Below are positions 13,341 through 40,615 of a stretch of 64,000 nt of DNA, one piece after another. Under the pieces are notes generated by a model. The model had not been told where the DNA came from. It saw nothing but the letters and a program-made list of their open reading frames with translations, and did no database searches. Position numbers and translations under genes: made by a program. The stretch's first letter is position 1; each line of letters starts with the position of its first letter. Source of the DNA: Ulva prolifera (lineage: Eukaryota; Chlorophyta; Ulvophyceae; Ulvales; Ulvaceae); NCBI GenBank assembly GCA_023078555.1, contig CM041202.1, forward strand, positions 682,001 through 746,000, in the 5' to 3' direction.

Positions 13341-13527
13341 CGGTGCCGGAAAAGCTAATGGGGCCTTTCAGTTAGGTGAATCGAGTGGCCTACCCCCCAG
13401 ACCATCAGCCCGAATGCACGGCAAACAAGCCCCACACACACACACGTACACTGTGCGACTCTCATCGAAAATTCAGAAAATCTGCGGGGTGGAGGGCCCA
13501 CCTGCCAGATGCGTTTGTCCTGCCCCT
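13341..13527 (+). repeat. Left terminal region of the transposon (187 bp)
   Basis: It starts exactly at the inverted-repeat terminus. The whole 187 bp recurs, apparently without change, at 16753-16939 and at every 3,850 bp after that inside the array. It includes a short CA microsatellite. Confidence 0.9.
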
Positions 13528-14579
13528 CACAGTGACTACAGCCATATTGCCTCACCTGGGTGAGCCAGATCCGTGGGTGAGTCAAGGGCGGGTGAGCAAC
13601 TGCCTAGATTCGCCACAATGGCTCGTTTCGGGCTTTAATTGGCTTCTTGGTGTGCAACGGGTCATATTGTGTATTGGTGACTCGATGCAAGTGGAATTTG
13701 CGTGTGTTGTGGTGTGTTTGGTACAATGTTGTATGCTGGTTGCTCACCCCGGAAGGTGAGCTGCCTGAGTGGGTGAGCATTCCCTGCGTGAGCCATTGCC
13801 AGACAGTGTGAAATGGACCATGGATTGAGCTGAACTGGCATGAAGATGTGAAGCATTTCATAACGGTTGGTCTTTGGTGATTTGTCGTGCTCTTTCGAGG
13901 CCCTCATGCACTTTATGGTCGTGTTGTGGCGCACCGTCTTGGGTGAGCCGCTGGTACAGGTGCGCGTATGCCGGGTGTTGTGATGCTGAGCCTAGCACAG
14001 CCTCGATGTATCAGATAGGTGCTACCGGTCATCGCGGCGTACAGCTAGTAGGCCTTACCTCGACTGACTGTTCCGTCGTCTCGGATTGTCCAAGTTCCCC
14101 GTGTGTGTGGTTATGCGCTTTGATAGGACCTGCTACCTAAACTCATTTTTGAAGTTGGATTCTGTAGTTTACGACCGGGTTTTAAACTATTGGATGTGGA
14201 GTTCAATGGACTATGGCCGCAACTGGTACCGTGCTGCTGTGCTGGATGCAAGCATTTAAACAGCCTGGGTCGTGGTGCTAGCCTACTCCAGTGTCAAATG
14301 TCACACGGTCGACTGCAGCAGATACCAGAGTAGCTAATTACAATACACTTCGCCACTTGCCAGGACCGTGATCTTTGCAGGCGACGCTCCACTGAGCTCG
14401 TCGGGATTGATGTGGGCCTTCGCCACATGTGCTGTCATGGGACAGACACTTGTATGCGGGTGGCATGTCTGAACAATTTGCGATAAGGATCTTCAAACTT
14501 CCTTTGCTACGCTGCTGATATCGTGTAATCTGTAGACGTATATTCCTACGGTGCCGCTTTCGAGGATGGGACTGGGTTT
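13528..14579. other. Unique left part of the transposon, no gene seen
   Basis: This stretch is present once and lies between the 187-bp left end and the zinc-finger ORF. It could hold a promoter and 5' leader, but I see no recognisable motif or convincing coding frame. The word GGGTGAG/GGTGAGC recurs several times at 13557-13795. Confidence 0.5.
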
Positions 14580-15128
14580 ATGGCGCCCAAGCGCGAAGCC
14601 CCTGCTTCCTTCATAGCATTACCACATGGTTGGTATTTTTGTAATAAATGCGACAAGTGGTCTCAGTCTTCTGATCACTTGGCGCGGCATCGTACGTCAA
14701 GGGATCACAAGCAAGCTTGTCGCCGAGTGGCAAGAAAAAAACAAGAACTCTTCCCTCCGCCAGATATAGTGACGCCCGTGGGATGTTCCCGCTCTGTGCC
14801 TCTCCCGAAGAAGCCTGCGGTTGGGTCTGTGCCTTCTCATGACCGAGGAAATCCCGTCGTAAGTGCTGAGACGACTGGACGTGGCACAGTCAACGAGTTT
14901 GCTGCTTCCTTCTCACATGACAACTCTATAGACAATGACCTCTTCGGGACAGGTGATTGGTCTGGTGCACCAGACTCAATTGTGGACCAGGGCCCGCTGT
15001 TGCCCAAGTACCCCATCGTCGCTCCCTCTCCTGTAACGGATGCTGACGAGAGGGATGAGCCATACTCATGGGAGAGAGAGGATTCGCAGCTTTCATCAGC
15101 TAGATGCAGAGCTCAAGTATTTACATAG
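14580..15128 (+). CDS. Zinc-finger protein ORF of the transposon (182 aa)
   Basis: The ORF starts at a true ATG and has one C2H2-type finger: C22-x2-C25 followed by H33 and H37 or H43, in YFCNKCDKWSQSSDHLARH. A basic stretch (CRRVARKKQ) and a Ser/Pro/Asp-rich tail follow. Such fingers are common DNA-binding parts of transposon proteins, so terminal-repeat binding is a reasonable inference. The last 14 codons run into the first array unit at 15087, so the true C terminus may come from splicing and the stop at 15126-15128 may be accidental. It is present only once, unlike everything in the array. Confidence 0.6.
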   Translation: MAPKREAPASFIALPHGWYFCNKCDKWSQSSDHLARHRTSRDHKQACRRVARKKQELFPPPDIVTPVGCSRSVPLPKKPAVGSVPSHDRGNPVVSAETTGRGTVNEFAASFSHDNSIDNDLFGTGDWSGAPDSIVDQGPLLPKYPIVAPSPVTDADERDEPYSWEREDSQLSSARCRAQVFT

Positions 15129-15160
15129 AGAGCAGAGTACATTTTCTGTGCGCCTCTGCC

Positions 15161-15808
15161 TCAACTACTTTCCCCCAGCTTCATGACAGTGGGCTCACCG
15201 TTGTCACCTGTCAGATAGTGTGTGTATGCTGCAGTGCATACCACTTTGCAAGCTGCACCTGCCATCTGACATTTGATGTACTCATGCCACTGATCTTTGT
15301 CTTTATGGTGCAATCGCATAAGGCTCCACCCTGAATTCATCACAATCCTGTCTTTCCTCGCATCCGCGTCATTTCTTGTGCAGTTTTTCTCATTGAAATG
15401 CTGCGGCCCATCCAACTCAAAGCTTGTGCACCTGTCGCCATGCATCACGGTTGCGTCGATGCTCATGCGTGTGTTATGTGGCACGCAGTGCCAGTCCCAA
15501 AAGATTGCGGCCGAGCTGTCAATCTTCAGAACTTCGTCCGCAAAACACTTGACGTATTTCGAGTATCTCGCGCACTGCGGCTGGTGGGCGGGGCATAGGA
15601 ATCTCGATCGCCGCGAGTCCTTTTGAACCGTTCGTAGCTTCATGACTTTGTAGCAGCTGCGAAACCCGCAGTCACAACGATAGCAGGTTACAGGATTATG
15701 CTTATTTTCTTTGAATCTGTCTCTGCATCTTGCTTGAAGCTTCTCTGTCATCTGCATGTCTTCATTGCCCCGGCCCGAAACACAGTTACGATCCGATCTG
15801 AGCCGCAT
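15161..15808 (-). CDS. Vsr/PD-(D/E)XK-like nuclease, array copy 1 (215 aa)
   Basis: Predicted DNA endonuclease. The core reads SIDAT (D118), then SFELDGPQHF (E131, D133, H137), then RKDRIV (K152, D153) and GWSLMRLHH (160-168). This order (D, ExDG, charged helix, GW..xRLH) is typical of Vsr/DUF559-type nucleases of the PD-(D/E)XK fold, a group that also contains phage homing endonucleases. The N-terminal part has possible zinc ligands C42-x2-C45, C47, C72-x2-H75 and C79. The start is a true ATG at 15808. The gene runs opposite to the transposase halves and ends 26 bp from the C half. In units 2-7 it lies inside the gap between the transposase halves. The substrate is unknown. An intron-homing or recombination role is only an inference. 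Confidence 0.75.
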   Translation of the reverse strand: MRLRSDRNCVSGRGNEDMQMTEKLQARCRDRFKENKHNPVTCYRCDCGFRSCYKVMKLRTVQKDSRRSRFLCPAHQPQCARYSKYVKCFADEVLKIDSSAAIFWDWHCVPHNTRMSIDATVMHGDRCTSFELDGPQHFNEKNCTRNDADARKDRIVMNSGWSLMRLHHKDKDQWHEYIKCQMAGAACKVVCTAAYTHYLTGDNGEPTVMKLGESS

Positions 15809-15834
15809 GCCTGCATGATTTAACGTTTTTCAAA

Positions 15835-16503
15835 ATGCTGCAGAAATGTGGGGGCGAGAGACCTGGTGGTTTCGTTGCCACCGAATTCCAAGAATGGTTT
15901 AGGCTGAAGGCACTCCCGGGAATACAGAAAGCAGCAAGAGAGAACTTTCTGCAGTACAAGGGACCAAAATGGTTCAACTGGAGCTCGTATGCCTCGTTGT
16001 GTGCAGCTGTAGGCCATGTCCACAGTGGGAACAGCCCATTTTTCATGATCTCTCAAGACTGCGACCCGCGCCATTCTATGAAGTATTGGTGGTCCAAGAT
16101 AGACGCCGGCAAGGCGCTCGCTGGCACCATCATTGACCGCAGAGACATACAAGCTGGGCAACCGGGTCATATCCCCATTGACAAGGTAAAAAATTATGTC
16201 CCCACTGCCCCTAAGGTCCCCGACAGTTTGCAGTTTGCTATCGAGAGCGTGTTCGCTCAAGTCAAGACCAGATACTACACTCTGCTGCATGGGTTGCATC
16301 ACATCACTCCTGCTGACATGGTGTGGGCATTGGAAAAGGCCTTTGATGAGGTGGCCACACCAGAGACTGTCAAGAGCTGCTTCCAGCACTGCGAGGAGAA
16401 CATGCGTATCTTTTGTGGCAAAGAAGACGAGTCTGTGTGGTTGGGAGGGGTGCAGTACCATTGCACCCATGGCAACTGGTTGCCAAAGGTTAGGAGAGGT
16501 TGA
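15835..16503 (+). CDS. DDE transposase C-terminal half, array copy 1 (orphan: no N half upstream)
   Basis: The ORF has 222 codons and carries the second and third catalytic residues of a Tc1/mariner-IS630-type transposase. FFMISQDCDPRHSMK (D75) resembles the family's QDNDPKH motif, and VPDSLQFAIESVFAQVK (E137) resembles SPDLNPIENxWxxLK. The spacing D-x61-E is longer than the usual 34. The ATG at 15835 may not be a real start, because ATGCTGCAG reads well as a splice acceptor (CAG before AAA at 15844), preceded by TTTAAC and a T-rich stretch. In this first unit the upstream neighbour is the zinc-finger ORF rather than the transposase N half, so this copy cannot make a complete triad by itself. 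Confidence 0.7.
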   Translation: MLQKCGGERPGGFVATEFQEWFRLKALPGIQKAARENFLQYKGPKWFNWSSYASLCAAVGHVHSGNSPFFMISQDCDPRHSMKYWWSKIDAGKALAGTIIDRRDIQAGQPGHIPIDKVKNYVPTAPKVPDSLQFAIESVFAQVKTRYYTLLHGLHHITPADMVWALEKAFDEVATPETVKSCFQHCEENMRIFCGKEDESVWLGGVQYHCTHGNWLPKVRRG

Positions 16504-16752
16504 GCATGTGCTTTTTTTCGAACAGCTTTGCCTTCAGATTGAACTGCATTGGTTTTTCTGCTTTTTTTGGGACCCGTGTTGGTACACTCTGCATTTCTGG
16601 CTCCTTGTAACGCAGGAGCTGAGACAACATGTGCATGCCCTCCACAGTATATGCTATGCACTACTGTATGTGTTAGCATGATTGCGTTGTGCTTTCTGCA
16701 AAATCAAGTCAACTGTTGTACACATATGCACATGCATAGTCATGCGTAAACA
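16504..16752. other. 249-bp segment between the transposase stop and the miniature element
   Basis: AT-richer than its surroundings, with T runs just after the stop codon. It is probably the 3' untranslated region of the transposase and is repeated in each unit. No terminal repeat is seen at its right edge apart from that of the miniature element. Confidence 0.4.
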
Positions 16753-17511
16753 CGGTGCCGGAAAAGCTAATGGGGCCTTTCAGTTAGGTGAATCGAGTGG
16801 CCTACCCCCCAGACCATCAGCCCGAATGCACGGCAAACAAGCCCCACACACACACACGTACACTGTGCGACTCTCATCGAAAATTCAGAAAATCTGCGGG
16901 GTGGAGGGCCCACCTGCCAGATGCGTTTGTCCTGCCCCTAGAGCAGAACCAAAGGCACCTTGTGGTGGGCAGGCCTACTGAGACCGCAACCAGCCCCGAT
17001 CACACAGATCGGCTGGTATCCCGCTGAAAATCTCCCAGTGTAAAGACAACCCACCGGCCTGTGAATCCACAAACTCCCGCCGGTACCGGTCTCTGTACCA
17101 GCCTAGTGGCGTTGCAGACTTCCAGACCTCGCGGCCACCACGACAGCGTTCAGAAATCACAGCAGCACCACTCGGATGTGTTGGAATCTAATTCTGGCAA
17201 GCGCACCATCCATGAGTAGCTCGAGAACGTGTGCTGCTACGGCAGTCAACATGCCGTGCCGGCCCACTCACTGCACCATATGCCCCATGCGAGCATCACG
17301 AGACTCACAAAAACGCCCTCTATTCAACCAGGCCGTCCACGCCTGCTCTCGTGCACTGTAAATGCCTGTGGTTCTGGTCGTCGCACTTCCATGCATACAT
17401 GCACATATATAGAGTGTGTGCGGGTGCGCTGCTTGTGCAGCCTCTGCCCACCTCTGATACTGCTTATGGTGATGTTTATGTTGAAAGGCCCCATTAGCGT
17501 TTTGAGCACCG
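16753..17511 (+). mobile_element. 759-bp miniature element with both terminal repeats, array copy 1
   Basis: It begins with the same 187 bp as the outer left end and finishes with the same right terminal repeat that ends the whole insertion. It therefore has the form of a non-autonomous derivative. No convincing ORF lies inside. The flanks (GTAAACA on the left, TATTCAG on the right) do not form a target duplication, so it did not simply jump into this place, or its flanks have since been rearranged. In the last unit its right end is the right end of the complete insertion. Confidence 0.75.
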
Positions 17512-17793
17512 TATTCAGAATTCTAAAATCTAGACCAAGAGTCCGTTGCAGATTCTGCCTGCTCATGCGCCTCGGGGATGTTGTGCATTGTGCGATTCGG
17601 TGATCAGGTGGCGCCGCACCCGGCGCAAACCCGGCCGCATGGCCACCCTGCCACTGCGCCTGTGCACAACCACTGATGACGTAACAGCTGTGCCACGTAC
17701 ATCAACACCGTCGGCATTCTATCCCACGCCGGCGTCTTTCAAAACGATTGAAGACTATAAGCATGATGCACGTACAATGTTCTTGCGTTTGAT
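17512..17793 (+). other. Leader upstream of the transposase N half
   Basis: An ATG at 17639 opens a frame reading MATLPLRLCTTTDD and later AFYPTPASFKTIEDYKHDA. This looks protein-like and could be a first coding exon of the transposase in another frame. Joining it to the next ORF would need an intron or frameshift near 17780-17900. Confidence 0.35.
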
Positions 17794-18930
17794 GTGTTCA
17801 GAGCGCAAATTGAGCCAACTGTCGCCATGTCCATACCTCCTATTCCACGAGATACGCGCGGGACGTGTCACTTCACTTCGGAAACATGCGAGCGTGCGTG
17901 CGGATGTTTCTTTCATGCTTATGCAGCCATACATGGGACGGATCCTGACAAGTGCGGCCTGCCAACACTTAGCCGGGGCTGCCAGGGCGACCCGGTGGTG
18001 TCGGAGGCACACAAACAGTTTATGTTCCAATATTGTCGAGGTGGGCGTATCATTGGCCAAGACCGCAGCTGCAGCAGAAAAGCATTCGTACATCTTCTTC
18101 ACGATCACTGGGACACATATTCTCAGAATCGGAAATGCCCTCGGAAGAGCCGGAAGAAAAATGTAAGTCTCAGTGATGAGGAGGGACACGAGCTGGCAAG
18201 GTTGTTGGGGACTCCAGTCAACAACAACGGCAGCTTCGAGAGGTACCAGAACATAGATGAAGCCATGAAAAAAAACTCGCGTGTGAAGCAACTGGTGGAA
18301 AAATCAGATGCCACGTGCAGCATGCTACATGCATGGCTTACCGAGCTGGTTCCAGCTCTGCGGTACTCTGCAGATGACTGCGCGCCCATACTCCCAGCCA
18401 GCACACTCAAGAGACGCCGCCACTGCGCCGACGTGCGTCGGGGGGATGCAGTGTGGTTTCACCGTGAGCCCACCTACTCCTCCCGTCGGGTCAGCAGGCC
18501 TGATGGCACCATGGAGAAGGTGCCTGTCGAATGGAAGGAGGAGTGGTTTGGCAACCACACCTTCATGCTTGATGCGACATCGGTCTGCAACAAGGAGGGC
18601 GAGGCGCATGAATCTTATGGGAAGGTGTACAGCCTGACTGATGAAGTGTTCCCACCCAGGCTAGTGAGAGCAGACATGCCGATCAGCCAATCCACCTCCA
18701 TCATGGTGTACTGCGTCATACACAAGCACCTTGGCGTCGTGGTTGGGCCTGATATCATGTTCACAGGCACCAAGCTTCCACAGTCCAAGATAGATAAGGA
18801 GGAACAATTTGCAGATGCTGGTGTCAAGACATGGTGTGCCATTGTGTCATGTAGCCTACACATTGCCCCGTGCACCAGCAGTTGTGAGAACACTGCAGTT
18901 TTATATGTTCAGGTGGACCAAGATGAATGA
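17794..18930 (+). CDS. DDE transposase N-terminal half, unit 1
   Basis: This frame of 378 codons opens with GTG. The first ATG is at 17827, and the frame is open back to 17767, so an upstream exon is likely. It is rich in Cys and His at first (HFTSETCERACGCFF), then basic (RKCPRKSRKKN), then predicted helical DNA-binding-like sequence. The first catalytic Asp is in NHTFMLDATSV (D260). SIMVYCVIHKHLGVVVG matches the strand that follows it in DDE_3-type transposases. The last codons, from VDQDE to the stop, are probably intronic: CAG/GTGGAC at 18912/18913 is a phase-0 donor that pairs with the phase-0 acceptor before 19694. The intron of 781 nt would hold the antisense nuclease. About 184 residues would separate D1 and D2. 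DNA-binding domain type not recognised. Confidence 0.7.
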   Translation: MFRAQIEPTVAMSIPPIPRDTRGTCHFTSETCERACGCFFHAYAAIHGTDPDKCGLPTLSRGCQGDPVVSEAHKQFMFQYCRGGRIIGQDRSCSRKAFVHLLHDHWDTYSQNRKCPRKSRKKNVSLSDEEGHELARLLGTPVNNNGSFERYQNIDEAMKKNSRVKQLVEKSDATCSMLHAWLTELVPALRYSADDCAPILPASTLKRRRHCADVRRGDAVWFHREPTYSSRRVSRPDGTMEKVPVEWKEEWFGNHTFMLDATSVCNKEGEAHESYGKVYSLTDEVFPPRLVRADMPISQSTSIMVYCVIHKHLGVVVGPDIMFTGTKLPQSKIDKEEQFADAGVKTWCAIVSCSLHIAPCTSSCENTAVLYVQVDQDE

Positions 18931-19010
18931 TGCTGGCAGCTTTCATCAGCTAGATGCAGAGCTCAAGTATTTACATAGAGAGCAGAGTACATTTTCTGTG
19001 CGCCTCTGCC

Positions 19011-19658
19011 TCAACTACTTTCCCCCAGCTTCATGACAGTGGGCTCACCGTTGTCACCTGTCAGATAGTGTGTGTATGCTGCAGTGCATACCACTTTGCA
19101 AGCTGCACCTGCCATCTGACATTTGATGTACTCATGCCACTGATCTTTGTCTTTATGGTGCAATCGCATAAGGCTCCACCCTGAATTCATCACAATCCTG
19201 TCTTTCCTCGCATCCGCGTCATTTCTTGTGCAGTTTTTCTCATTGAAATGCTGCGGCCCATCCAACTCAAAGCTTGTGCACCTGTCGCCATGCATCACGG
19301 TTGCGTCGATGCTCATGCGTGTGTTATGTGGCACGCAGTGCCAGTCCCAAAAGATTGCGGCCGAGCTGTCAATCTTCAGAACTTCGTCCGCAAAACACTT
19401 GACGTATTTCGAGTATCTCGCGCACTGCGGCTGGTGGGCGGGGCATAGGAATCTCGATCGCCGCGAGTCCTTTTGAACCGTTCGTAGCTTCATGACTTTG
19501 TAGCAGCTGCGAAACCCGCAGTCACAACGATAGCAGGTTACAGGATTATGCTTATTTTCTTTGAATCTGTCTCTGCATCTTGCTTGAAGCTTCTCTGTCA
19601 TCTGCATGTCTTCATTGCCCCGGCCCGAAACACAGTTACGATCCGATCTGAGCCGCAT
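19011..19658 (-). CDS. Vsr-like nuclease, array copy 2
   Basis: Same translation as the copy at 15161. Here it lies between the N half ending at 18912/18930 and the C half starting at 19685/19694, antisense to both. Confidence 0.75.
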   Translation of the reverse strand: MRLRSDRNCVSGRGNEDMQMTEKLQARCRDRFKENKHNPVTCYRCDCGFRSCYKVMKLRTVQKDSRRSRFLCPAHQPQCARYSKYVKCFADEVLKIDSSAAIFWDWHCVPHNTRMSIDATVMHGDRCTSFELDGPQHFNEKNCTRNDADARKDRIVMNSGWSLMRLHHKDKDQWHEYIKCQMAGAACKVVCTAAYTHYLTGDNGEPTVMKLGESS

Positions 19659-19684
19659 GCCTGCATGATTTAACGTTTTTCAAA

Positions 19685-20353
19685 ATGCTGCAGAAATGTG
19701 GGGGCGAGAGACCTGGTGGTTTCGTTGCCACCGAATTCCAAGAATGGTTTAGGCTGAAGGCACTCCCGGGAATACAGAAAGCAGCAAGAGAGAACTTTCT
19801 GCAGTACAAGGGACCAAAATGGTTCAACTGGAGCTCGTATGCCTCGTTGTGTGCAGCTGTAGGCCATGTCCACAGTGGGAACAGCCCATTTTTCATGATC
19901 TCTCAAGACTGCGACCCGCGCCATTCTATGAAGTATTGGTGGTCCAAGATAGACGCCGGCAAGGCGCTCGCTGGCACCATCATTGACCGCAGAGACATAC
20001 AAGCTGGGCAACCGGGTCATATCCCCATTGACAAGGTAAAAAATTATGTCCCCACTGCCCCTAAGGTCCCCGACAGTTTGCAGTTTGCTATCGAGAGCGT
20101 GTTCGCTCAAGTCAAGACCAGATACTACACTCTGCTGCATGGGTTGCATCACATCACTCCTGCTGACATGGTGTGGGCATTGGAAAAGGCCTTTGATGAG
20201 GTGGCCACACCAGAGACTGTCAAGAGCTGCTTCCAGCACTGCGAGGAGAACATGCGTATCTTTTGTGGCAAAGAAGACGAGTCTGTGTGGTTGGGAGGGG
20301 TGCAGTACCATTGCACCCATGGCAACTGGTTGCCAAAGGTTAGGAGAGGTTGA
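19685..20353 (+). CDS. DDE transposase C half, completing the N half at 17794
   Basis: Same 222 codons as at 15835. With the proposed splice 18912/19694 it completes the first intact D-D-E triad in the array (D260 of the N half, then D75 and E137 of this frame). Confidence 0.7.
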   Translation: MLQKCGGERPGGFVATEFQEWFRLKALPGIQKAARENFLQYKGPKWFNWSSYASLCAAVGHVHSGNSPFFMISQDCDPRHSMKYWWSKIDAGKALAGTIIDRRDIQAGQPGHIPIDKVKNYVPTAPKVPDSLQFAIESVFAQVKTRYYTLLHGLHHITPADMVWALEKAFDEVATPETVKSCFQHCEENMRIFCGKEDESVWLGGVQYHCTHGNWLPKVRRG

Positions 20354-20602
20354 GCATGTGCTTTTTTTCGAACAGCTTTGCCTTCAGATTGAACTGCATT
20401 GGTTTTTCTGCTTTTTTTGGGACCCGTGTTGGTACACTCTGCATTTCTGGCTCCTTGTAACGCAGGAGCTGAGACAACATGTGCATGCCCTCCACAGTAT
20501 ATGCTATGCACTACTGTATGTGTTAGCATGATTGCGTTGTGCTTTCTGCAAAATCAAGTCAACTGTTGTACACATATGCACATGCATAGTCATGCGTAAA
20601 CA

Positions 20603-21361
20603 CGGTGCCGGAAAAGCTAATGGGGCCTTTCAGTTAGGTGAATCGAGTGGCCTACCCCCCAGACCATCAGCCCGAATGCACGGCAAACAAGCCCCACACA
20701 CACACACGTACACTGTGCGACTCTCATCGAAAATTCAGAAAATCTGCGGGGTGGAGGGCCCACCTGCCAGATGCGTTTGTCCTGCCCCTAGAGCAGAACC
20801 AAAGGCACCTTGTGGTGGGCAGGCCTACTGAGACCGCAACCAGCCCCGATCACACAGATCGGCTGGTATCCCGCTGAAAATCTCCCAGTGTAAAGACAAC
20901 CCACCGGCCTGTGAATCCACAAACTCCCGCCGGTACCGGTCTCTGTACCAGCCTAGTGGCGTTGCAGACTTCCAGACCTCGCGGCCACCACGACAGCGTT
21001 CAGAAATCACAGCAGCACCACTCGGATGTGTTGGAATCTAATTCTGGCAAGCGCACCATCCATGAGTAGCTCGAGAACGTGTGCTGCTACGGCAGTCAAC
21101 ATGCCGTGCCGGCCCACTCACTGCACCATATGCCCCATGCGAGCATCACGAGACTCACAAAAACGCCCTCTATTCAACCAGGCCGTCCACGCCTGCTCTC
21201 GTGCACTGTAAATGCCTGTGGTTCTGGTCGTCGCACTTCCATGCATACATGCACATATATAGAGTGTGTGCGGGTGCGCTGCTTGTGCAGCCTCTGCCCA
21301 CCTCTGATACTGCTTATGGTGATGTTTATGTTGAAAGGCCCCATTAGCGTTTTGAGCACCG
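20603..21361 (+). mobile_element. Miniature element, array copy 2
   Basis: Repeat of 16753-17511 at +3,850. Confidence 0.75.
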
Positions 21362-21643
21362 TATTCAGAATTCTAAAATCTAGACCAAGAGTCCGTTGCA
21401 GATTCTGCCTGCTCATGCGCCTCGGGGATGTTGTGCATTGTGCGATTCGGTGATCAGGTGGCGCCGCACCCGGCGCAAACCCGGCCGCATGGCCACCCTG
21501 CCACTGCGCCTGTGCACAACCACTGATGACGTAACAGCTGTGCCACGTACATCAACACCGTCGGCATTCTATCCCACGCCGGCGTCTTTCAAAACGATTG
21601 AAGACTATAAGCATGATGCACGTACAATGTTCTTGCGTTTGAT

Positions 21644-24203
21644 GTGTTCAGAGCGCAAATTGAGCCAACTGTCGCCATGTCCATACCTCCTATTCCACGA
21701 GATACGCGCGGGACGTGTCACTTCACTTCGGAAACATGCGAGCGTGCGTGCGGATGTTTCTTTCATGCTTATGCAGCCATACATGGGACGGATCCTGACA
21801 AGTGCGGCCTGCCAACACTTAGCCGGGGCTGCCAGGGCGACCCGGTGGTGTCGGAGGCACACAAACAGTTTATGTTCCAATATTGTCGAGGTGGGCGTAT
21901 CATTGGCCAAGACCGCAGCTGCAGCAGAAAAGCATTCGTACATCTTCTTCACGATCACTGGGACACATATTCTCAGAATCGGAAATGCCCTCGGAAGAGC
22001 CGGAAGAAAAATGTAAGTCTCAGTGATGAGGAGGGACACGAGCTGGCAAGGTTGTTGGGGACTCCAGTCAACAACAACGGCAGCTTCGAGAGGTACCAGA
22101 ACATAGATGAAGCCATGAAAAAAAACTCGCGTGTGAAGCAACTGGTGGAAAAATCAGATGCCACGTGCAGCATGCTACATGCATGGCTTACCGAGCTGGT
22201 TCCAGCTCTGCGGTACTCTGCAGATGACTGCGCGCCCATACTCCCAGCCAGCACACTCAAGAGACGCCGCCACTGCGCCGACGTGCGTCGGGGGGATGCA
22301 GTGTGGTTTCACCGTGAGCCCACCTACTCCTCCCGTCGGGTCAGCAGGCCTGATGGCACCATGGAGAAGGTGCCTGTCGAATGGAAGGAGGAGTGGTTTG
22401 GCAACCACACCTTCATGCTTGATGCGACATCGGTCTGCAACAAGGAGGGCGAGGCGCATGAATCTTATGGGAAGGTGTACAGCCTGACTGATGAAGTGTT
22501 CCCACCCAGGCTAGTGAGAGCAGACATGCCGATCAGCCAATCCACCTCCATCATGGTGTACTGCGTCATACACAAGCACCTTGGCGTCGTGGTTGGGCCT
22601 GATATCATGTTCACAGGCACCAAGCTTCCACAGTCCAAGATAGATAAGGAGGAACAATTTGCAGATGCTGGTGTCAAGACATGGTGTGCCATTGTGTCAT
22701 GTAGCCTACACATTGCCCCGTGCACCAGCAGTTGTGAGAACACTGCAGTTTTATATGTTCAGGTGGACCAAGATGAATGATGCTGGCAGCTTTCATCAGC
22801 TAGATGCAGAGCTCAAGTATTTACATAGAGAGCAGAGTACATTTTCTGTGCGCCTCTGCCTCAACTACTTTCCCCCAGCTTCATGACAGTGGGCTCACCG
22901 TTGTCACCTGTCAGATAGTGTGTGTATGCTGCAGTGCATACCACTTTGCAAGCTGCACCTGCCATCTGACATTTGATGTACTCATGCCACTGATCTTTGT
23001 CTTTATGGTGCAATCGCATAAGGCTCCACCCTGAATTCATCACAATCCTGTCTTTCCTCGCATCCGCGTCATTTCTTGTGCAGTTTTTCTCATTGAAATG
23101 CTGCGGCCCATCCAACTCAAAGCTTGTGCACCTGTCGCCATGCATCACGGTTGCGTCGATGCTCATGCGTGTGTTATGTGGCACGCAGTGCCAGTCCCAA
23201 AAGATTGCGGCCGAGCTGTCAATCTTCAGAACTTCGTCCGCAAAACACTTGACGTATTTCGAGTATCTCGCGCACTGCGGCTGGTGGGCGGGGCATAGGA
23301 ATCTCGATCGCCGCGAGTCCTTTTGAACCGTTCGTAGCTTCATGACTTTGTAGCAGCTGCGAAACCCGCAGTCACAACGATAGCAGGTTACAGGATTATG
23401 CTTATTTTCTTTGAATCTGTCTCTGCATCTTGCTTGAAGCTTCTCTGTCATCTGCATGTCTTCATTGCCCCGGCCCGAAACACAGTTACGATCCGATCTG
23501 AGCCGCATGCCTGCATGATTTAACGTTTTTCAAAATGCTGCAGAAATGTGGGGGCGAGAGACCTGGTGGTTTCGTTGCCACCGAATTCCAAGAATGGTTT
23601 AGGCTGAAGGCACTCCCGGGAATACAGAAAGCAGCAAGAGAGAACTTTCTGCAGTACAAGGGACCAAAATGGTTCAACTGGAGCTCGTATGCCTCGTTGT
23701 GTGCAGCTGTAGGCCATGTCCACAGTGGGAACAGCCCATTTTTCATGATCTCTCAAGACTGCGACCCGCGCCATTCTATGAAGTATTGGTGGTCCAAGAT
23801 AGACGCCGGCAAGGCGCTCGCTGGCACCATCATTGACCGCAGAGACATACAAGCTGGGCAACCGGGTCATATCCCCATTGACAAGGTAAAAAATTATGTC
23901 CCCACTGCCCCTAAGGTCCCCGACAGTTTGCAGTTTGCTATCGAGAGCGTGTTCGCTCAAGTCAAGACCAGATACTACACTCTGCTGCATGGGTTGCATC
24001 ACATCACTCCTGCTGACATGGTGTGGGCATTGGAAAAGGCCTTTGATGAGGTGGCCACACCAGAGACTGTCAAGAGCTGCTTCCAGCACTGCGAGGAGAA
24101 CATGCGTATCTTTTGTGGCAAAGAAGACGAGTCTGTGTGGTTGGGAGGGGTGCAGTACCATTGCACCCATGGCAACTGGTTGCCAAAGGTTAGGAGAGGT
24201 TGA
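21644..24203 (+). CDS. DDE transposase, array copy 2 (N half 21644-22780, C half 23535-24203)
   Basis: Same two frames as at 17794 and 19685. The proposed splice is 22762/23544, with the antisense nuclease in the intervening sequence. Confidence 0.65.
22861..23508 (-). CDS. Vsr-like nuclease, array copy 3
   Basis: Identical frame to 15161-15808, nested antisense in the transposase of 21644-24203. Confidence 0.75.
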   Translation of the reverse strand: MRLRSDRNCVSGRGNEDMQMTEKLQARCRDRFKENKHNPVTCYRCDCGFRSCYKVMKLRTVQKDSRRSRFLCPAHQPQCARYSKYVKCFADEVLKIDSSAAIFWDWHCVPHNTRMSIDATVMHGDRCTSFELDGPQHFNEKNCTRNDADARKDRIVMNSGWSLMRLHHKDKDQWHEYIKCQMAGAACKVVCTAAYTHYLTGDNGEPTVMKLGESS

Positions 24204-24452: not shown

Positions 24453-25211
24453 CGGTGCCGGAAAAGCTAATGGGGCCTTTCAGTTAGGTGAATCGAGTGG
24501 CCTACCCCCCAGACCATCAGCCCGAATGCACGGCAAACAAGCCCCACACACACACACGTACACTGTGCGACTCTCATCGAAAATTCAGAAAATCTGCGGG
24601 GTGGAGGGCCCACCTGCCAGATGCGTTTGTCCTGCCCCTAGAGCAGAACCAAAGGCACCTTGTGGTGGGCAGGCCTACTGAGACCGCAACCAGCCCCGAT
24701 CACACAGATCGGCTGGTATCCCGCTGAAAATCTCCCAGTGTAAAGACAACCCACCGGCCTGTGAATCCACAAACTCCCGCCGGTACCGGTCTCTGTACCA
24801 GCCTAGTGGCGTTGCAGACTTCCAGACCTCGCGGCCACCACGACAGCGTTCAGAAATCACAGCAGCACCACTCGGATGTGTTGGAATCTAATTCTGGCAA
24901 GCGCACCATCCATGAGTAGCTCGAGAACGTGTGCTGCTACGGCAGTCAACATGCCGTGCCGGCCCACTCACTGCACCATATGCCCCATGCGAGCATCACG
25001 AGACTCACAAAAACGCCCTCTATTCAACCAGGCCGTCCACGCCTGCTCTCGTGCACTGTAAATGCCTGTGGTTCTGGTCGTCGCACTTCCATGCATACAT
25101 GCACATATATAGAGTGTGTGCGGGTGCGCTGCTTGTGCAGCCTCTGCCCACCTCTGATACTGCTTATGGTGATGTTTATGTTGAAAGGCCCCATTAGCGT
25201 TTTGAGCACCG
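24453..25211 (+). mobile_element. Miniature element, array copy 3
   Basis: Repeat of 16753-17511 at +7,700. Confidence 0.75.
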
Positions 25212-28302: not shown

Positions 28303-29061
28303 CGGTGCCGGAAAAGCTAATGGGGCCTTTCAGTTAGGTGAATCGAGTGGCCTACCCCCCAGACCATCAGCCCGAATGCACGGCAAACAAGCCCCACACA
28401 CACACACGTACACTGTGCGACTCTCATCGAAAATTCAGAAAATCTGCGGGGTGGAGGGCCCACCTGCCAGATGCGTTTGTCCTGCCCCTAGAGCAGAACC
28501 AAAGGCACCTTGTGGTGGGCAGGCCTACTGAGACCGCAACCAGCCCCGATCACACAGATCGGCTGGTATCCCGCTGAAAATCTCCCAGTGTAAAGACAAC
28601 CCACCGGCCTGTGAATCCACAAACTCCCGCCGGTACCGGTCTCTGTACCAGCCTAGTGGCGTTGCAGACTTCCAGACCTCGCGGCCACCACGACAGCGTT
28701 CAGAAATCACAGCAGCACCACTCGGATGTGTTGGAATCTAATTCTGGCAAGCGCACCATCCATGAGTAGCTCGAGAACGTGTGCTGCTACGGCAGTCAAC
28801 ATGCCGTGCCGGCCCACTCACTGCACCATATGCCCCATGCGAGCATCACGAGACTCACAAAAACGCCCTCTATTCAACCAGGCCGTCCACGCCTGCTCTC
28901 GTGCACTGTAAATGCCTGTGGTTCTGGTCGTCGCACTTCCATGCATACATGCACATATATAGAGTGTGTGCGGGTGCGCTGCTTGTGCAGCCTCTGCCCA
29001 CCTCTGATACTGCTTATGGTGATGTTTATGTTGAAAGGCCCCATTAGCGTTTTGAGCACCG
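28303..29061 (+). mobile_element. Miniature element, array copy 4
   Basis: Repeat of 16753-17511 at +11,550. Confidence 0.75.
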
Positions 29062-32152: not shown

Positions 32153-32911
32153 CGGTGCCGGAAAAGCTAATGGGGCCTTTCAGTTAGGTGAATCGAGTGG
32201 CCTACCCCCCAGACCATCAGCCCGAATGCACGGCAAACAAGCCCCACACACACACACGTACACTGTGCGACTCTCATCGAAAATTCAGAAAATCTGCGGG
32301 GTGGAGGGCCCACCTGCCAGATGCGTTTGTCCTGCCCCTAGAGCAGAACCAAAGGCACCTTGTGGTGGGCAGGCCTACTGAGACCGCAACCAGCCCCGAT
32401 CACACAGATCGGCTGGTATCCCGCTGAAAATCTCCCAGTGTAAAGACAACCCACCGGCCTGTGAATCCACAAACTCCCGCCGGTACCGGTCTCTGTACCA
32501 GCCTAGTGGCGTTGCAGACTTCCAGACCTCGCGGCCACCACGACAGCGTTCAGAAATCACAGCAGCACCACTCGGATGTGTTGGAATCTAATTCTGGCAA
32601 GCGCACCATCCATGAGTAGCTCGAGAACGTGTGCTGCTACGGCAGTCAACATGCCGTGCCGGCCCACTCACTGCACCATATGCCCCATGCGAGCATCACG
32701 AGACTCACAAAAACGCCCTCTATTCAACCAGGCCGTCCACGCCTGCTCTCGTGCACTGTAAATGCCTGTGGTTCTGGTCGTCGCACTTCCATGCATACAT
32801 GCACATATATAGAGTGTGTGCGGGTGCGCTGCTTGTGCAGCCTCTGCCCACCTCTGATACTGCTTATGGTGATGTTTATGTTGAAAGGCCCCATTAGCGT
32901 TTTGAGCACCG
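32153..32911 (+). mobile_element. Miniature element, array copy 5
   Basis: Repeat of 16753-17511 at +15,400. Confidence 0.75.
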
Positions 32912-33193
32912 TATTCAGAATTCTAAAATCTAGACCAAGAGTCCGTTGCAGATTCTGCCTGCTCATGCGCCTCGGGGATGTTGTGCATTGTGCGATTCGG
33001 TGATCAGGTGGCGCCGCACCCGGCGCAAACCCGGCCGCATGGCCACCCTGCCACTGCGCCTGTGCACAACCACTGATGACGTAACAGCTGTGCCACGTAC
33101 ATCAACACCGTCGGCATTCTATCCCACGCCGGCGTCTTTCAAAACGATTGAAGACTATAAGCATGATGCACGTACAATGTTCTTGCGTTTGAT

Positions 33194-35753
33194 GTGTTCA
33201 GAGCGCAAATTGAGCCAACTGTCGCCATGTCCATACCTCCTATTCCACGAGATACGCGCGGGACGTGTCACTTCACTTCGGAAACATGCGAGCGTGCGTG
33301 CGGATGTTTCTTTCATGCTTATGCAGCCATACATGGGACGGATCCTGACAAGTGCGGCCTGCCAACACTTAGCCGGGGCTGCCAGGGCGACCCGGTGGTG
33401 TCGGAGGCACACAAACAGTTTATGTTCCAATATTGTCGAGGTGGGCGTATCATTGGCCAAGACCGCAGCTGCAGCAGAAAAGCATTCGTACATCTTCTTC
33501 ACGATCACTGGGACACATATTCTCAGAATCGGAAATGCCCTCGGAAGAGCCGGAAGAAAAATGTAAGTCTCAGTGATGAGGAGGGACACGAGCTGGCAAG
33601 GTTGTTGGGGACTCCAGTCAACAACAACGGCAGCTTCGAGAGGTACCAGAACATAGATGAAGCCATGAAAAAAAACTCGCGTGTGAAGCAACTGGTGGAA
33701 AAATCAGATGCCACGTGCAGCATGCTACATGCATGGCTTACCGAGCTGGTTCCAGCTCTGCGGTACTCTGCAGATGACTGCGCGCCCATACTCCCAGCCA
33801 GCACACTCAAGAGACGCCGCCACTGCGCCGACGTGCGTCGGGGGGATGCAGTGTGGTTTCACCGTGAGCCCACCTACTCCTCCCGTCGGGTCAGCAGGCC
33901 TGATGGCACCATGGAGAAGGTGCCTGTCGAATGGAAGGAGGAGTGGTTTGGCAACCACACCTTCATGCTTGATGCGACATCGGTCTGCAACAAGGAGGGC
34001 GAGGCGCATGAATCTTATGGGAAGGTGTACAGCCTGACTGATGAAGTGTTCCCACCCAGGCTAGTGAGAGCAGACATGCCGATCAGCCAATCCACCTCCA
34101 TCATGGTGTACTGCGTCATACACAAGCACCTTGGCGTCGTGGTTGGGCCTGATATCATGTTCACAGGCACCAAGCTTCCACAGTCCAAGATAGATAAGGA
34201 GGAACAATTTGCAGATGCTGGTGTCAAGACATGGTGTGCCATTGTGTCATGTAGCCTACACATTGCCCCGTGCACCAGCAGTTGTGAGAACACTGCAGTT
34301 TTATATGTTCAGGTGGACCAAGATGAATGATGCTGGCAGCTTTCATCAGCTAGATGCAGAGCTCAAGTATTTACATAGAGAGCAGAGTACATTTTCTGTG
34401 CGCCTCTGCCTCAACTACTTTCCCCCAGCTTCATGACAGTGGGCTCACCGTTGTCACCTGTCAGATAGTGTGTGTATGCTGCAGTGCATACCACTTTGCA
34501 AGCTGCACCTGCCATCTGACATTTGATGTACTCATGCCACTGATCTTTGTCTTTATGGTGCAATCGCATAAGGCTCCACCCTGAATTCATCACAATCCTG
34601 TCTTTCCTCGCATCCGCGTCATTTCTTGTGCAGTTTTTCTCATTGAAATGCTGCGGCCCATCCAACTCAAAGCTTGTGCACCTGTCGCCATGCATCACGG
34701 TTGCGTCGATGCTCATGCGTGTGTTATGTGGCACGCAGTGCCAGTCCCAAAAGATTGCGGCCGAGCTGTCAATCTTCAGAACTTCGTCCGCAAAACACTT
34801 GACGTATTTCGAGTATCTCGCGCACTGCGGCTGGTGGGCGGGGCATAGGAATCTCGATCGCCGCGAGTCCTTTTGAACCGTTCGTAGCTTCATGACTTTG
34901 TAGCAGCTGCGAAACCCGCAGTCACAACGATAGCAGGTTACAGGATTATGCTTATTTTCTTTGAATCTGTCTCTGCATCTTGCTTGAAGCTTCTCTGTCA
35001 TCTGCATGTCTTCATTGCCCCGGCCCGAAACACAGTTACGATCCGATCTGAGCCGCATGCCTGCATGATTTAACGTTTTTCAAAATGCTGCAGAAATGTG
35101 GGGGCGAGAGACCTGGTGGTTTCGTTGCCACCGAATTCCAAGAATGGTTTAGGCTGAAGGCACTCCCGGGAATACAGAAAGCAGCAAGAGAGAACTTTCT
35201 GCAGTACAAGGGACCAAAATGGTTCAACTGGAGCTCGTATGCCTCGTTGTGTGCAGCTGTAGGCCATGTCCACAGTGGGAACAGCCCATTTTTCATGATC
35301 TCTCAAGACTGCGACCCGCGCCATTCTATGAAGTATTGGTGGTCCAAGATAGACGCCGGCAAGGCGCTCGCTGGCACCATCATTGACCGCAGAGACATAC
35401 AAGCTGGGCAACCGGGTCATATCCCCATTGACAAGGTAAAAAATTATGTCCCCACTGCCCCTAAGGTCCCCGACAGTTTGCAGTTTGCTATCGAGAGCGT
35501 GTTCGCTCAAGTCAAGACCAGATACTACACTCTGCTGCATGGGTTGCATCACATCACTCCTGCTGACATGGTGTGGGCATTGGAAAAGGCCTTTGATGAG
35601 GTGGCCACACCAGAGACTGTCAAGAGCTGCTTCCAGCACTGCGAGGAGAACATGCGTATCTTTTGTGGCAAAGAAGACGAGTCTGTGTGGTTGGGAGGGG
35701 TGCAGTACCATTGCACCCATGGCAACTGGTTGCCAAAGGTTAGGAGAGGTTGA
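33194..35753 (+). CDS. DDE transposase, array copy 5 (33194-34330 and 35085-35753)
   Basis: Both halves intact, same frames as the first pair. Confidence 0.65.
34411..35058 (-). CDS. Vsr-like nuclease, array copy 6
   Basis: Same 215-codon frame, antisense between the halves of transposase copy 5. Confidence 0.75.
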   Translation of the reverse strand: MRLRSDRNCVSGRGNEDMQMTEKLQARCRDRFKENKHNPVTCYRCDCGFRSCYKVMKLRTVQKDSRRSRFLCPAHQPQCARYSKYVKCFADEVLKIDSSAAIFWDWHCVPHNTRMSIDATVMHGDRCTSFELDGPQHFNEKNCTRNDADARKDRIVMNSGWSLMRLHHKDKDQWHEYIKCQMAGAACKVVCTAAYTHYLTGDNGEPTVMKLGESS

Positions 35754-36002
35754 GCATGTGCTTTTTTTCGAACAGCTTTGCCTTCAGATTGAACTGCATT
35801 GGTTTTTCTGCTTTTTTTGGGACCCGTGTTGGTACACTCTGCATTTCTGGCTCCTTGTAACGCAGGAGCTGAGACAACATGTGCATGCCCTCCACAGTAT
35901 ATGCTATGCACTACTGTATGTGTTAGCATGATTGCGTTGTGCTTTCTGCAAAATCAAGTCAACTGTTGTACACATATGCACATGCATAGTCATGCGTAAA
36001 CA

Positions 36003-36761
36003 CGGTGCCGGAAAAGCTAATGGGGCCTTTCAGTTAGGTGAATCGAGTGGCCTACCCCCCAGACCATCAGCCCGAATGCACGGCAAACAAGCCCCACACA
36101 CACACACGTACACTGTGCGACTCTCATCGAAAATTCAGAAAATCTGCGGGGTGGAGGGCCCACCTGCCAGATGCGTTTGTCCTGCCCCTAGAGCAGAACC
36201 AAAGGCACCTTGTGGTGGGCAGGCCTACTGAGACCGCAACCAGCCCCGATCACACAGATCGGCTGGTATCCCGCTGAAAATCTCCCAGTGTAAAGACAAC
36301 CCACCGGCCTGTGAATCCACAAACTCCCGCCGGTACCGGTCTCTGTACCAGCCTAGTGGCGTTGCAGACTTCCAGACCTCGCGGCCACCACGACAGCGTT
36401 CAGAAATCACAGCAGCACCACTCGGATGTGTTGGAATCTAATTCTGGCAAGCGCACCATCCATGAGTAGCTCGAGAACGTGTGCTGCTACGGCAGTCAAC
36501 ATGCCGTGCCGGCCCACTCACTGCACCATATGCCCCATGCGAGCATCACGAGACTCACAAAAACGCCCTCTATTCAACCAGGCCGTCCACGCCTGCTCTC
36601 GTGCACTGTAAATGCCTGTGGTTCTGGTCGTCGCACTTCCATGCATACATGCACATATATAGAGTGTGTGCGGGTGCGCTGCTTGTGCAGCCTCTGCCCA
36701 CCTCTGATACTGCTTATGGTGATGTTTATGTTGAAAGGCCCCATTAGCGTTTTGAGCACCG
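36003..36761 (+). mobile_element. Miniature element, array copy 6
   Basis: Repeat of 16753-17511 at +19,250. Confidence 0.75.
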
Positions 36762-37043
36762 TATTCAGAATTCTAAAATCTAGACCAAGAGTCCGTTGCA
36801 GATTCTGCCTGCTCATGCGCCTCGGGGATGTTGTGCATTGTGCGATTCGGTGATCAGGTGGCGCCGCACCCGGCGCAAACCCGGCCGCATGGCCACCCTG
36901 CCACTGCGCCTGTGCACAACCACTGATGACGTAACAGCTGTGCCACGTACATCAACACCGTCGGCATTCTATCCCACGCCGGCGTCTTTCAAAACGATTG
37001 AAGACTATAAGCATGATGCACGTACAATGTTCTTGCGTTTGAT

Positions 37044-39603
37044 GTGTTCAGAGCGCAAATTGAGCCAACTGTCGCCATGTCCATACCTCCTATTCCACGA
37101 GATACGCGCGGGACGTGTCACTTCACTTCGGAAACATGCGAGCGTGCGTGCGGATGTTTCTTTCATGCTTATGCAGCCATACATGGGACGGATCCTGACA
37201 AGTGCGGCCTGCCAACACTTAGCCGGGGCTGCCAGGGCGACCCGGTGGTGTCGGAGGCACACAAACAGTTTATGTTCCAATATTGTCGAGGTGGGCGTAT
37301 CATTGGCCAAGACCGCAGCTGCAGCAGAAAAGCATTCGTACATCTTCTTCACGATCACTGGGACACATATTCTCAGAATCGGAAATGCCCTCGGAAGAGC
37401 CGGAAGAAAAATGTAAGTCTCAGTGATGAGGAGGGACACGAGCTGGCAAGGTTGTTGGGGACTCCAGTCAACAACAACGGCAGCTTCGAGAGGTACCAGA
37501 ACATAGATGAAGCCATGAAAAAAAACTCGCGTGTGAAGCAACTGGTGGAAAAATCAGATGCCACGTGCAGCATGCTACATGCATGGCTTACCGAGCTGGT
37601 TCCAGCTCTGCGGTACTCTGCAGATGACTGCGCGCCCATACTCCCAGCCAGCACACTCAAGAGACGCCGCCACTGCGCCGACGTGCGTCGGGGGGATGCA
37701 GTGTGGTTTCACCGTGAGCCCACCTACTCCTCCCGTCGGGTCAGCAGGCCTGATGGCACCATGGAGAAGGTGCCTGTCGAATGGAAGGAGGAGTGGTTTG
37801 GCAACCACACCTTCATGCTTGATGCGACATCGGTCTGCAACAAGGAGGGCGAGGCGCATGAATCTTATGGGAAGGTGTACAGCCTGACTGATGAAGTGTT
37901 CCCACCCAGGCTAGTGAGAGCAGACATGCCGATCAGCCAATCCACCTCCATCATGGTGTACTGCGTCATACACAAGCACCTTGGCGTCGTGGTTGGGCCT
38001 GATATCATGTTCACAGGCACCAAGCTTCCACAGTCCAAGATAGATAAGGAGGAACAATTTGCAGATGCTGGTGTCAAGACATGGTGTGCCATTGTGTCAT
38101 GTAGCCTACACATTGCCCCGTGCACCAGCAGTTGTGAGAACACTGCAGTTTTATATGTTCAGGTGGACCAAGATGAATGATGCTGGCAGCTTTCATCAGC
38201 TAGATGCAGAGCTCAAGTATTTACATAGAGAGCAGAGTACATTTTCTGTGCGCCTCTGCCTCAACTACTTTCCCCCAGCTTCATGACAGTGGGCTCACCG
38301 TTGTCACCTGTCAGATAGTGTGTGTATGCTGCAGTGCATACCACTTTGCAAGCTGCACCTGCCATCTGACATTTGATGTACTCATGCCACTGATCTTTGT
38401 CTTTATGGTGCAATCGCATAAGGCTCCACCCTGAATTCATCACAATCCTGTCTTTCCTCGCATCCGCGTCATTTCTTGTGCAGTTTTTCTCATTGAAATG
38501 CTGCGGCCCATCCAACTCAAAGCTTGTGCACCTGTCGCCATGCATCACGGTTGCGTCGATGCTCATGCGTGTGTTATGTGGCACGCAGTGCCAGTCCCAA
38601 AAGATTGCGGCCGAGCTGTCAATCTTCAGAACTTCGTCCGCAAAACACTTGACGTATTTCGAGTATCTCGCGCACTGCGGCTGGTGGGCGGGGCATAGGA
38701 ATCTCGATCGCCGCGAGTCCTTTTGAACCGTTCGTAGCTTCATGACTTTGTAGCAGCTGCGAAACCCGCAGTCACAACGATAGCAGGTTACAGGATTATG
38801 CTTATTTTCTTTGAATCTGTCTCTGCATCTTGCTTGAAGCTTCTCTGTCATCTGCATGTCTTCATTGCCCCGGCCCGAAACACAGTTACGATCCGATCTG
38901 AGCCGCATGCCTGCATGATTTAACGTTTTTCAAAATGCTGCAGAAATGTGGGGGCGAGAGACCTGGTGGTTTCGTTGCCACCGAATTCCAAGAATGGTTT
39001 AGGCTGAAGGCACTCCCGGGAATACAGAAAGCAGCAAGAGAGAACTTTCTGCAGTACAAGGGACCAAAATGGTTCAACTGGAGCTCGTATGCCTCGTTGT
39101 GTGCAGCTGTAGGCCATGTCCACAGTGGGAACAGCCCATTTTTCATGATCTCTCAAGACTGCGACCCGCGCCATTCTATGAAGTATTGGTGGTCCAAGAT
39201 AGACGCCGGCAAGGCGCTCGCTGGCACCATCATTGACCGCAGAGACATACAAGCTGGGCAACCGGGTCATATCCCCATTGACAAGGTAAAAAATTATGTC
39301 CCCACTGCCCCTAAGGTCCCCGACAGTTTGCAGTTTGCTATCGAGAGCGTGTTCGCTCAAGTCAAGACCAGATACTACACTCTGCTGCATGGGTTGCATC
39401 ACATCACTCCTGCTGACATGGTGTGGGCATTGGAAAAGGCCTTTGATGAGGTGGCCACACCAGAGACTGTCAAGAGCTGCTTCCAGCACTGCGAGGAGAA
39501 CATGCGTATCTTTTGTGGCAAAGAAGACGAGTCTGTGTGGTTGGGAGGGGTGCAGTACCATTGCACCCATGGCAACTGGTTGCCAAAGGTTAGGAGAGGT
39601 TGA
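37044..39603 (+). CDS. DDE transposase, array copy 6 (37044-38180 and 38935-39603)
   Basis: This is the last complete pair of halves. Its C half is in the partial seventh unit, upstream of the terminal miniature element. Confidence 0.65.
38261..38908 (-). CDS. Vsr-like nuclease, array copy 7
   Basis: Same 215-codon frame, antisense between the halves of transposase copy 6. Confidence 0.75.
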   Translation of the reverse strand: MRLRSDRNCVSGRGNEDMQMTEKLQARCRDRFKENKHNPVTCYRCDCGFRSCYKVMKLRTVQKDSRRSRFLCPAHQPQCARYSKYVKCFADEVLKIDSSAAIFWDWHCVPHNTRMSIDATVMHGDRCTSFELDGPQHFNEKNCTRNDADARKDRIVMNSGWSLMRLHHKDKDQWHEYIKCQMAGAACKVVCTAAYTHYLTGDNGEPTVMKLGESS

Positions 39604-39852
39604 GCATGTGCTTTTTTTCGAACAGCTTTGCCTTCAGATTGAACTGCATTGGTTTTTCTGCTTTTTTTGGGACCCGTGTTGGTACACTCTGCATTTCTGG
39701 CTCCTTGTAACGCAGGAGCTGAGACAACATGTGCATGCCCTCCACAGTATATGCTATGCACTACTGTATGTGTTAGCATGATTGCGTTGTGCTTTCTGCA
39801 AAATCAAGTCAACTGTTGTACACATATGCACATGCATAGTCATGCGTAAACA

Positions 39853-40611
39853 CGGTGCCGGAAAAGCTAATGGGGCCTTTCAGTTAGGTGAATCGAGTGG
39901 CCTACCCCCCAGACCATCAGCCCGAATGCACGGCAAACAAGCCCCACACACACACACGTACACTGTGCGACTCTCATCGAAAATTCAGAAAATCTGCGGG
40001 GTGGAGGGCCCACCTGCCAGATGCGTTTGTCCTGCCCCTAGAGCAGAACCAAAGGCACCTTGTGGTGGGCAGGCCTACTGAGACCGCAACCAGCCCCGAT
40101 CACACAGATCGGCTGGTATCCCGCTGAAAATCTCCCAGTGTAAAGACAACCCACCGGCCTGTGAATCCACAAACTCCCGCCGGTACCGGTCTCTGTACCA
40201 GCCTAGTGGCGTTGCAGACTTCCAGACCTCGCGGCCACCACGACAGCGTTCAGAAATCACAGCAGCACCACTCGGATGTGTTGGAATCTAATTCTGGCAA
40301 GCGCACCATCCATGAGTAGCTCGAGAACGTGTGCTGCTACGGCAGTCAACATGCCGTGCCGGCCCACTCACTGCACCATATGCCCCATGCGAGCATCACG
40401 AGACTCACAAAAACGCCCTCTATTCAACCAGGCCGTCCACGCCTGCTCTCGTGCACTGTAAATGCCTGTGGTTCTGGTCGTCGCACTTCCATGCATACAT
40501 GCACATATATAGAGTGTGTGCGGGTGCGCTGCTTGTGCAGCCTCTGCCCACCTCTGATACTGCTTATGGTGATGTTTATGTTGAAAGGCCCCATTAGCGT
40601 TTTGAGCACCG
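39853..40611 (+). mobile_element. Miniature element, array copy 7, forming the right end of the insertion
   Basis: Its right terminus (GAGCACCG at 40604-40611) is followed directly by host CAAG. In all other units the same terminus is followed by TATTCAG, the transposase leader. Confidence 0.8.
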
Positions 40612-40615
40612 CAAG
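40612..40615. repeat. Right target-site duplication CAAG
   Basis: Partner of 13337-13340. The following CTGATGCATGC matches 59380-59390 at the empty paralogous site. Confidence 0.9.

Follow-up and report, generated by a model that had tools for sequence, protein, structure and literature searches.

A candidate composite-like DNA transposon and its tandem multimers in the genome of the alga Ulva prolifera

Introduction

Composite-like DNA transposons termed KolobokP have been described from seven animal phyla by Kojima and Bao (2022; PMC9587614), whose account covers 228 families and sets out a plan in which an internal region (INT) lies between two directly repeated terminal modules (LTDR-INT-LTDR), together with solo modules, monomers and multimers of the same design. 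In the literature searched, KolobokP was the sole published match to the architecture reported below, and the matches listed in those searches, judged by titles and the opening parts of abstracts, included no such element in algae. Being reported from one animal lineage, the LTDR architecture could have been an oddity.

Here we describe an array of identical repeat units in a stretch of 64,000 nucleotides from contig CM041202.1 of Ulva prolifera (hereafter the window), and compare it with further copies in the same genome. We consider it probable, at roughly 85%, that the array belongs to a composite-like DNA transposon having a mobile module of ~759 bp and an internal region with two genes, and that its arrays grow in place.

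Results

A single insertion with a target duplication and an unoccupied paralogous site

Comparison of ends, flanks and a paralogous site showed that window positions 13341-40611 constitute a single insertion. Its left outer end, CGGTGCCGGAAAAGCTAATGGGGCCTTTCA (13341-13370), matches its inverted partner (40582-40611) at 26 of 30 positions, with four mismatches, and the target-site duplication CAAG, to which no strand is assigned, stands on the left at 13337..13340 and on the right at 40612..40615. When joined, the flanks align with a paralogous spacer at 59271-59470 (154 of 219 alignment columns match), which carries one CAAG (59376..59379, likewise unstranded) at the junction point and matches closely around it. 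An earlier sequence-only reading had claimed inverted outer ends (26 of 30) flanked by CAAG, a pre-insertion state preserved in the spacer at 59376, and one insertion between two ends in place of a satellite grown beside a transposon. All of this holds; against the satellite stand the CAAG on both outer sides, the unoccupied site and two other arrays (below) that lie between 4-bp duplications.

The surroundings are themselves repetitive. Window positions 1-13341 and 41168-59860 hold several diverged copies of a tandem segment of ~9-10 kb (matches mostly 74-94% identical), and it is a spacer within this cluster that the array interrupts. Homopolymer stretches of G or C, each 26-38 bases long, occur at 8064-8095, 50712-50749, 50866-50892 and 63937-63962.

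Organization of the array

The array is composed of segments A (187 bp), R (572 bp), N (1,424 bp), B (1,667 bp) and U (1,558 bp) in the order A-U-B, six successive A-R-N-B blocks, and a final A-R, every common part being identical. The left inverted end opens segment A and the right one closes segment R; together A and R form a 759-bp module, a terminal direct repeat that carries inverted ends of its own (LTDR), present in seven complete and one truncated copy in the window, while N and B form the 3,091-bp INT between modules. As assembled, the six complete 3,850-bp units (16753-39852) show no pairwise differences, and the 759-bp tail of the array is identical to the start of a unit. Since each unit holds both ends (for example, left at 16753 and right at 17511), what is repeated is a 759-bp LTDR plus a 3,091-bp INT. 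The figure of 6.6 tandem copies in the sequence-only reading was a fair description of six complete INTs and 1,667 of the 3,091 bp of a seventh, the number of units resting on the assembly.

The LTDR and INT parts of the array lie on the forward strand. The left 187 bp (segment A, 13341..13527) alone remain of the first LTDR, identical to 16753-16939 over 187 bp, and INT 1 is represented by its right 1,667 bp (15086..16752, identical to 18936-20602). LTDR 2 (16753..17511, 759 bp, CGGTGC...GCACCG), delimited by comparison of ends and identity, is followed by INT 2 (17512..20602, 3,091 bp), which according to unit comparison recurs identically at 21362-24452, 25212-28302, 29062-32152, 32912-36002 and 36762-39852. 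LTDRs 3 to 7 occupy 20603..21361, 24453..25211, 28303..29061, 32153..32911 and 36003..36761, and LTDR 8 (39853..40611) closes the array. No gene was found in the LTDR.

Segment U (13528..15085, forward strand) is the left portion of a dispersed repeat that is unrelated. Beginning with CACAGTGAC, it lies at the A|R border and is joined to INT segment B at GCAGC; an 88% identical copy at locus L030 has the same start base and diverges from the window after GCAGC. Copies of this repeat were noted at 13528-15085 of the window, 4142-5680 of L030 and C1:5977866-5980380; its ORF is C2H2-like, the Pfam match being below cut-off, and 15 of the 20 matches listed span its start alone (40-211 bp). The repeat is another uncharacterised mobile element.

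Predicted genes of the internal region

The sequence-only reading had assigned a transposase and a nuclease to the units, and each complete unit does carry a putative three-exon transposase and a nuclease of PD-(D/E)XK-like appearance. In INT 2 the putative transposase is encoded on the forward strand by exon 1 (17827..18833), with a candidate first catalytic D in HTFMLDAT, exon 2 (18913..18997), with AG/GT borders, and exon 3 (19694..20353), with a DxDxRH motif and a PDxxQFxIE-like motif. The exons join in frame to encode 583 residues, and their borders and phases, including those of exon 2, also hold in family 2 of the element. The nuclease gene (19011..19658, reverse strand) lies antisense inside transposase intron 2; on C9, two copies of much greater divergence also have a nuclease antisense beside exon 3.

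Searches of public contigs with the putative transposase retrieved at least 12 proteins related to exon 1, one being the window's own and the others 34-70% identical, and at least 19 related to exon 3 (41-94% identical). In alignments of these relatives the D of the FMLDA stretch (exon 1) and the DxDxRH motif (exon 3) are invariant, and a downstream E nearly so; on these grounds we designate the 583-residue protein a putative DDE transposase, one not convincingly matching any known family. Pfam, NCBIfam and PDB yielded stray matches and no convincing transposase match, and among 32 sequences scanned none had a convincing Pfam match. The stray matches included the rve_3 integrase core, at E 0.096 in one of 20 members, a PDB chain named radical SAM protein (E 0.0063) and, from E 0.011, Pfam families without relation to transposases; of two PDB profile searches, one gave a single stray match and the other none. 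Nothing useful came from Pfam on window positions 1-4000, from Rfam, or from viral and prokaryote contigs.

The predicted nuclease has 215 residues and a stretch reading SIDA...FE.DG..HF. Four Pfam families, DUF559, MTES_1575, RAP and DUF2726, which we take to be PD-(D/E)XK types, were touched by three to four of eight members, all below cut-off; five further families, each touched by a single member, appear to be chance matches, and no His-Me finger family was matched by the eight members in Pfam. As judged by comparing sequences, the predicted coding frames are shown to be under purifying selection: dN/dS between families 1 and 2 was 0.14 for exon 1, 0.16 for exon 3 and 0.22 for the nuclease, and the family-2 frames are free of stops.

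Solo modules, monomers and arrays in the host genome

The host genome (88.9 Mb, 44 contigs) was searched and the best candidates scored, so that copy counts are lower bounds. Thirty-eight places in it match the chlorophyll-binding family PF00504, some being exons of a single gene, and for one of them the PDB matches are chlorophyll a-b binding proteins (best, LHCI-2 of entry 9vfj); the placement of the host as a chlorophyll a/b alga is based on these matches. It contains solo LTDRs, monomers (LTDR-INT-LTDR) and arrays ((LTDR-INT)n-LTDR), each with one 4-bp duplication. The sequence-only reading had proposed a genome search for single-unit relatives and a count of units per locus. Three such monomers were found: L009 (4,609 bp, CAAG), its LTDRs identical to those of the window and its INT one substitution away; L010 (4,627 bp, GTGG); and one at L013/L014 (4,621 bp, CTTG) from a family ~72-76% identical in DNA. 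The genome also holds two further arrays. One, at C2:11262626-11269110 (L027/L028), has four LTDRs, three INTs of 1,151 bp and the duplication CCAG; the other, of a non-autonomous family, spans 48,295 bp at C3:3609936-3658230 with the duplication CCTA and has at least 31 located INTs (27+2+2), at least one of them truncated, L031, L032 and L035 having been read and the middle reconstructed from matches alone. Solo modules occur at L013/L014, L015, L016, L020, L022, L023 and L026.

Given monomers, solo modules and arrays, LTDR-INT-LTDR is the basic element, and the array in the window is a multimer of it, which we infer to have been originally (LTDR-INT)7-LTDR. The earlier view, in which a single cut-and-paste element has the array as its body, is not supported in that form; the element is the monomer, as in L009, and the array its multimer.

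Both ends were found in 13 of 23 insertions examined, and all 13 (seven solo modules, three monomers, three arrays) have an exact 4-bp duplication, such as CAAG, GTGG, CATG or CCTA; the other ten, with one or both ends missing, rearranged or undetected by the scan, were not counted (L011/L012, L017, L018, L019, L021, L024, L025, L029, L036, L037). The sequence TAGTGG directly precedes the left end in L010, L011 and L015, and a truncated piece in L025, which hints at a target preference.

Ten aligned LTDRs begin CGG, finish CCG and measure 752-777 bp, though identity falls below 50%. Eight of these modules are 65-100% identical; L036, with ends located by eye, and L037 are at 42-49%, about the level of unrelated DNA. 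The L037 module measures 759 bp by an end scan that gives chance pairs too: of 21 pairs in 54,000 positions, two were real LTDRs. The LTDR of L016 has 795 bp. The recurrence of multimers is suggested by old INT-LTDR-INT pieces, which occur at L017, L021 and L036. The piece at 3879-8072 of L036 (C9:2392001-2402000, reversed) has no outer LTDRs, and 381 identical bases are common to its two overlapping internal parts; it might be what is left of an array, or else a circle that recombined.

Variation within and between arrays

In family 3, no differences were found within an array (three INTs and four LTDRs read on C2; seven INTs and four LTDRs on C3), and 22 of 1151 INT positions and 10 of 758 LTDR positions differ between the C2 and C3 arrays. 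Because units are identical within an array and different between arrays, the probable course, as far as such comparisons indicate, is growth of each array in place through unequal recombination.

The C3 array also contains 15 INT-INT junctions that have no LTDR and read GTGAACA-CG-TGTTCTC, against none for a reversed-pattern control. They account for all 15 spacings of 1,153 bp on C3; the pattern detects intact INT ends only, and junctions with lost bases would escape it. In family 1 the corresponding pattern found no LTDR-less junctions. As the LTDR starts and ends with CG, a cut with 2-nt self-complementary overhangs would leave exactly CG. Since LTDR-less units occur in runs, the 15 junctions may derive from one event copied by amplification, and a deletion from CG to CG across an LTDR would give the same product as excision. 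With its LTDR-less runs and truncated units, the C3 array is a record of growth and module loss.

Discussion

In the mechanism we propose, the transposase would pair the outer left with the outer right end and insert the element with a 4-bp stagger, after which units would be added as LTDRs (or INTs) recombine unequally, either between sister chromatids or within the chromosome. Such recombination between LTDRs would yield both multimers and solo LTDRs and leave the outer duplication unchanged. A single LTDR may also be cut out, with CG left behind. The array in the window would have reached (LTDR-INT)7-LTDR before a second repeat and a deletion broke its first unit. The nuclease might provoke recombination, and with it array growth, by cutting LTDR or INT DNA, a speculative step that we think rather less probable than not. 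A transposition of the 759-bp module into an array with its own duplication was considered and rejected, since no such duplication flanks the internal LTDRs of the arrays: the adjoining INT has AACA at its end and TATT or TGTT at its start.

The sequence-only reading had called the architecture non-standard; for KolobokP, the plan of solo module, monomer and multimer is already published (PMC9587614). It is conceivable, and to us somewhat unlikely, that the element belongs to the Kolobok superfamily (KolobokP), which would then have reached an alga, and forms no independent lineage. The resemblance extends to the LTDR-INT-LTDR plan, inverted ends on the LTDR itself, the occurrence of solo LTDRs, (LTDR-INT)n-LTDR multimers bearing a single target duplication (3-5 bp as the KolobokP criterion, 4 bp here), INT-INT junctions after LTDR loss, a constrained, near-constant LTDR length, and a sense transposase with an antisense nuclease (PMC9587614). 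Against such kinship, the ends are CG..CG in place of RR..YY; the inverted ends have 30 bp (26 matching), compared with 11-18 bp; the LTDR measures ~759 bp, not ~450 or ~660 bp; the 15 junctions keep both INT ends and CG, whereas those of KolobokP lose 3-4 bp; the predicted nuclease has weak PD-(D/E)XK-type matches and none to the His-Me finger type described there; and the hosts reported are animals, not algae. An independent origin of the LTDR architecture here is possible. The architecture, then, is known, and its occurrence in this host with this protein pair appears to be new within the literature searched. A fuller proposal, joining an independent second origin, a new transposase superfamily of green-plastid algae, an intron-nested PD-(D/E)XK nuclease as its lasting partner, LTDR excision with a 2-bp CG scar, and transposition combined with nuclease-provoked array growth, falls a little short of even odds in our estimation.

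Arrays may, alternatively, have arisen when a circle of ~3,850 bp (LTDR-INT) recombined into a resident LTDR, without unequal crossover. We regard this course, too, as somewhat unlikely. It predicts the same products with duplications unchanged (model b of PMC9587614), and the longest contig of the relatives is 3.8-4.2 kb in 17 of 31 rows and longer in one of 31, some contigs being counted twice and one row being the window's own protein; such contigs of about one unit weakly hint at arrays or circles elsewhere. Collapsed tandem repeats would give identical-looking contigs, and no circle was seen. Monomer L010 differs from the window by two substitutions and three indels in the left LTDR, one substitution in the right LTDR, and 15 substitutions plus a 2-bp insertion in INT. 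As these differences form no one-sided cluster, there is no sign of recent circle integration; a mosaic origin of L010 was rejected on the same observation.

It is quite unlikely that a monomer was falsely expanded during assembly. All six units are identical, and their number and identity may in part be products of assembly, but three arrays have distinct unit types, truncated and LTDR-less units and array-specific substitutions, and older, diverged INT-LTDR-INT pieces exist. We give very little credence to an ordinary satellite or segmental duplication beside a transposon end: head-to-tail identity and duplicated flanks are what it would lead one to expect, but the CAAG on each outer side, the unoccupied paralogous site and the two other arrays likewise placed between 4-bp duplications refute it, barring an assembly error at each of the two junctions. 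An LTR retrotransposon or a rolling-circle (Helitron-like) multimer is just as improbable, for the LTR-like direct repeats, solo copies, tandem multimers and one relative touching an integrase-core model (E 0.096) are offset by the 30-bp inverted ends of the repeats, by a 4-bp duplication, which argues against a Helitron, and by the finding of no reverse transcriptase or Rep/helicase match in coding ORFs or relatives.

With this architecture present in an alga, beside a different-looking nuclease and a transposase of no convincingly matched family, one can test whether "paired direct repeats plus nuclease" is a recurrent route by which DNA transposons multiply in place. The 88.9-Mb genome lends itself to such work, since its monomers and arrays include young copies that are nearly identical and the scar is clear enough to assay. 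If the origin is indeed independent, convergence on paired LTDRs plus a nuclease would mean that the nuclease serves a function within a twofold strategy of replication.

Several other known systems share features with this element. By eye, the QDxDP[RK]H and PD...IE motifs of the putative transposase resemble, we presume, those of Tc1/mariner/IS630, and a 2-bp scar would suit the 2-nt cleavage stagger of that group. The duplication there is TA, in contrast to the 4 bp here of all 13 insertions for which both ends were found, and hhalign, run with a narrow profile built from five partial IS630 proteins, returned a probability of 0.2%, no better than the 0.4% of the IS21 and IS66 controls. Tandem LTR retrotransposons and TRIM arrays, as treated in the KolobokP paper (PMC9587614), similarly have head-to-tail units with common terminal repeats as well as solo repeats; here, unlike there, no reverse transcriptase was found and each repeat has long inverted ends. 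That paper also treats bacterial composite transposons and translocatable units of the IS26 type (PMC9587614), which likewise have directly repeated mobile modules around other genes, and in which single modules may move alone; there the transposase is encoded inside the module, whereas in this alga the putative transposase lies between modules.
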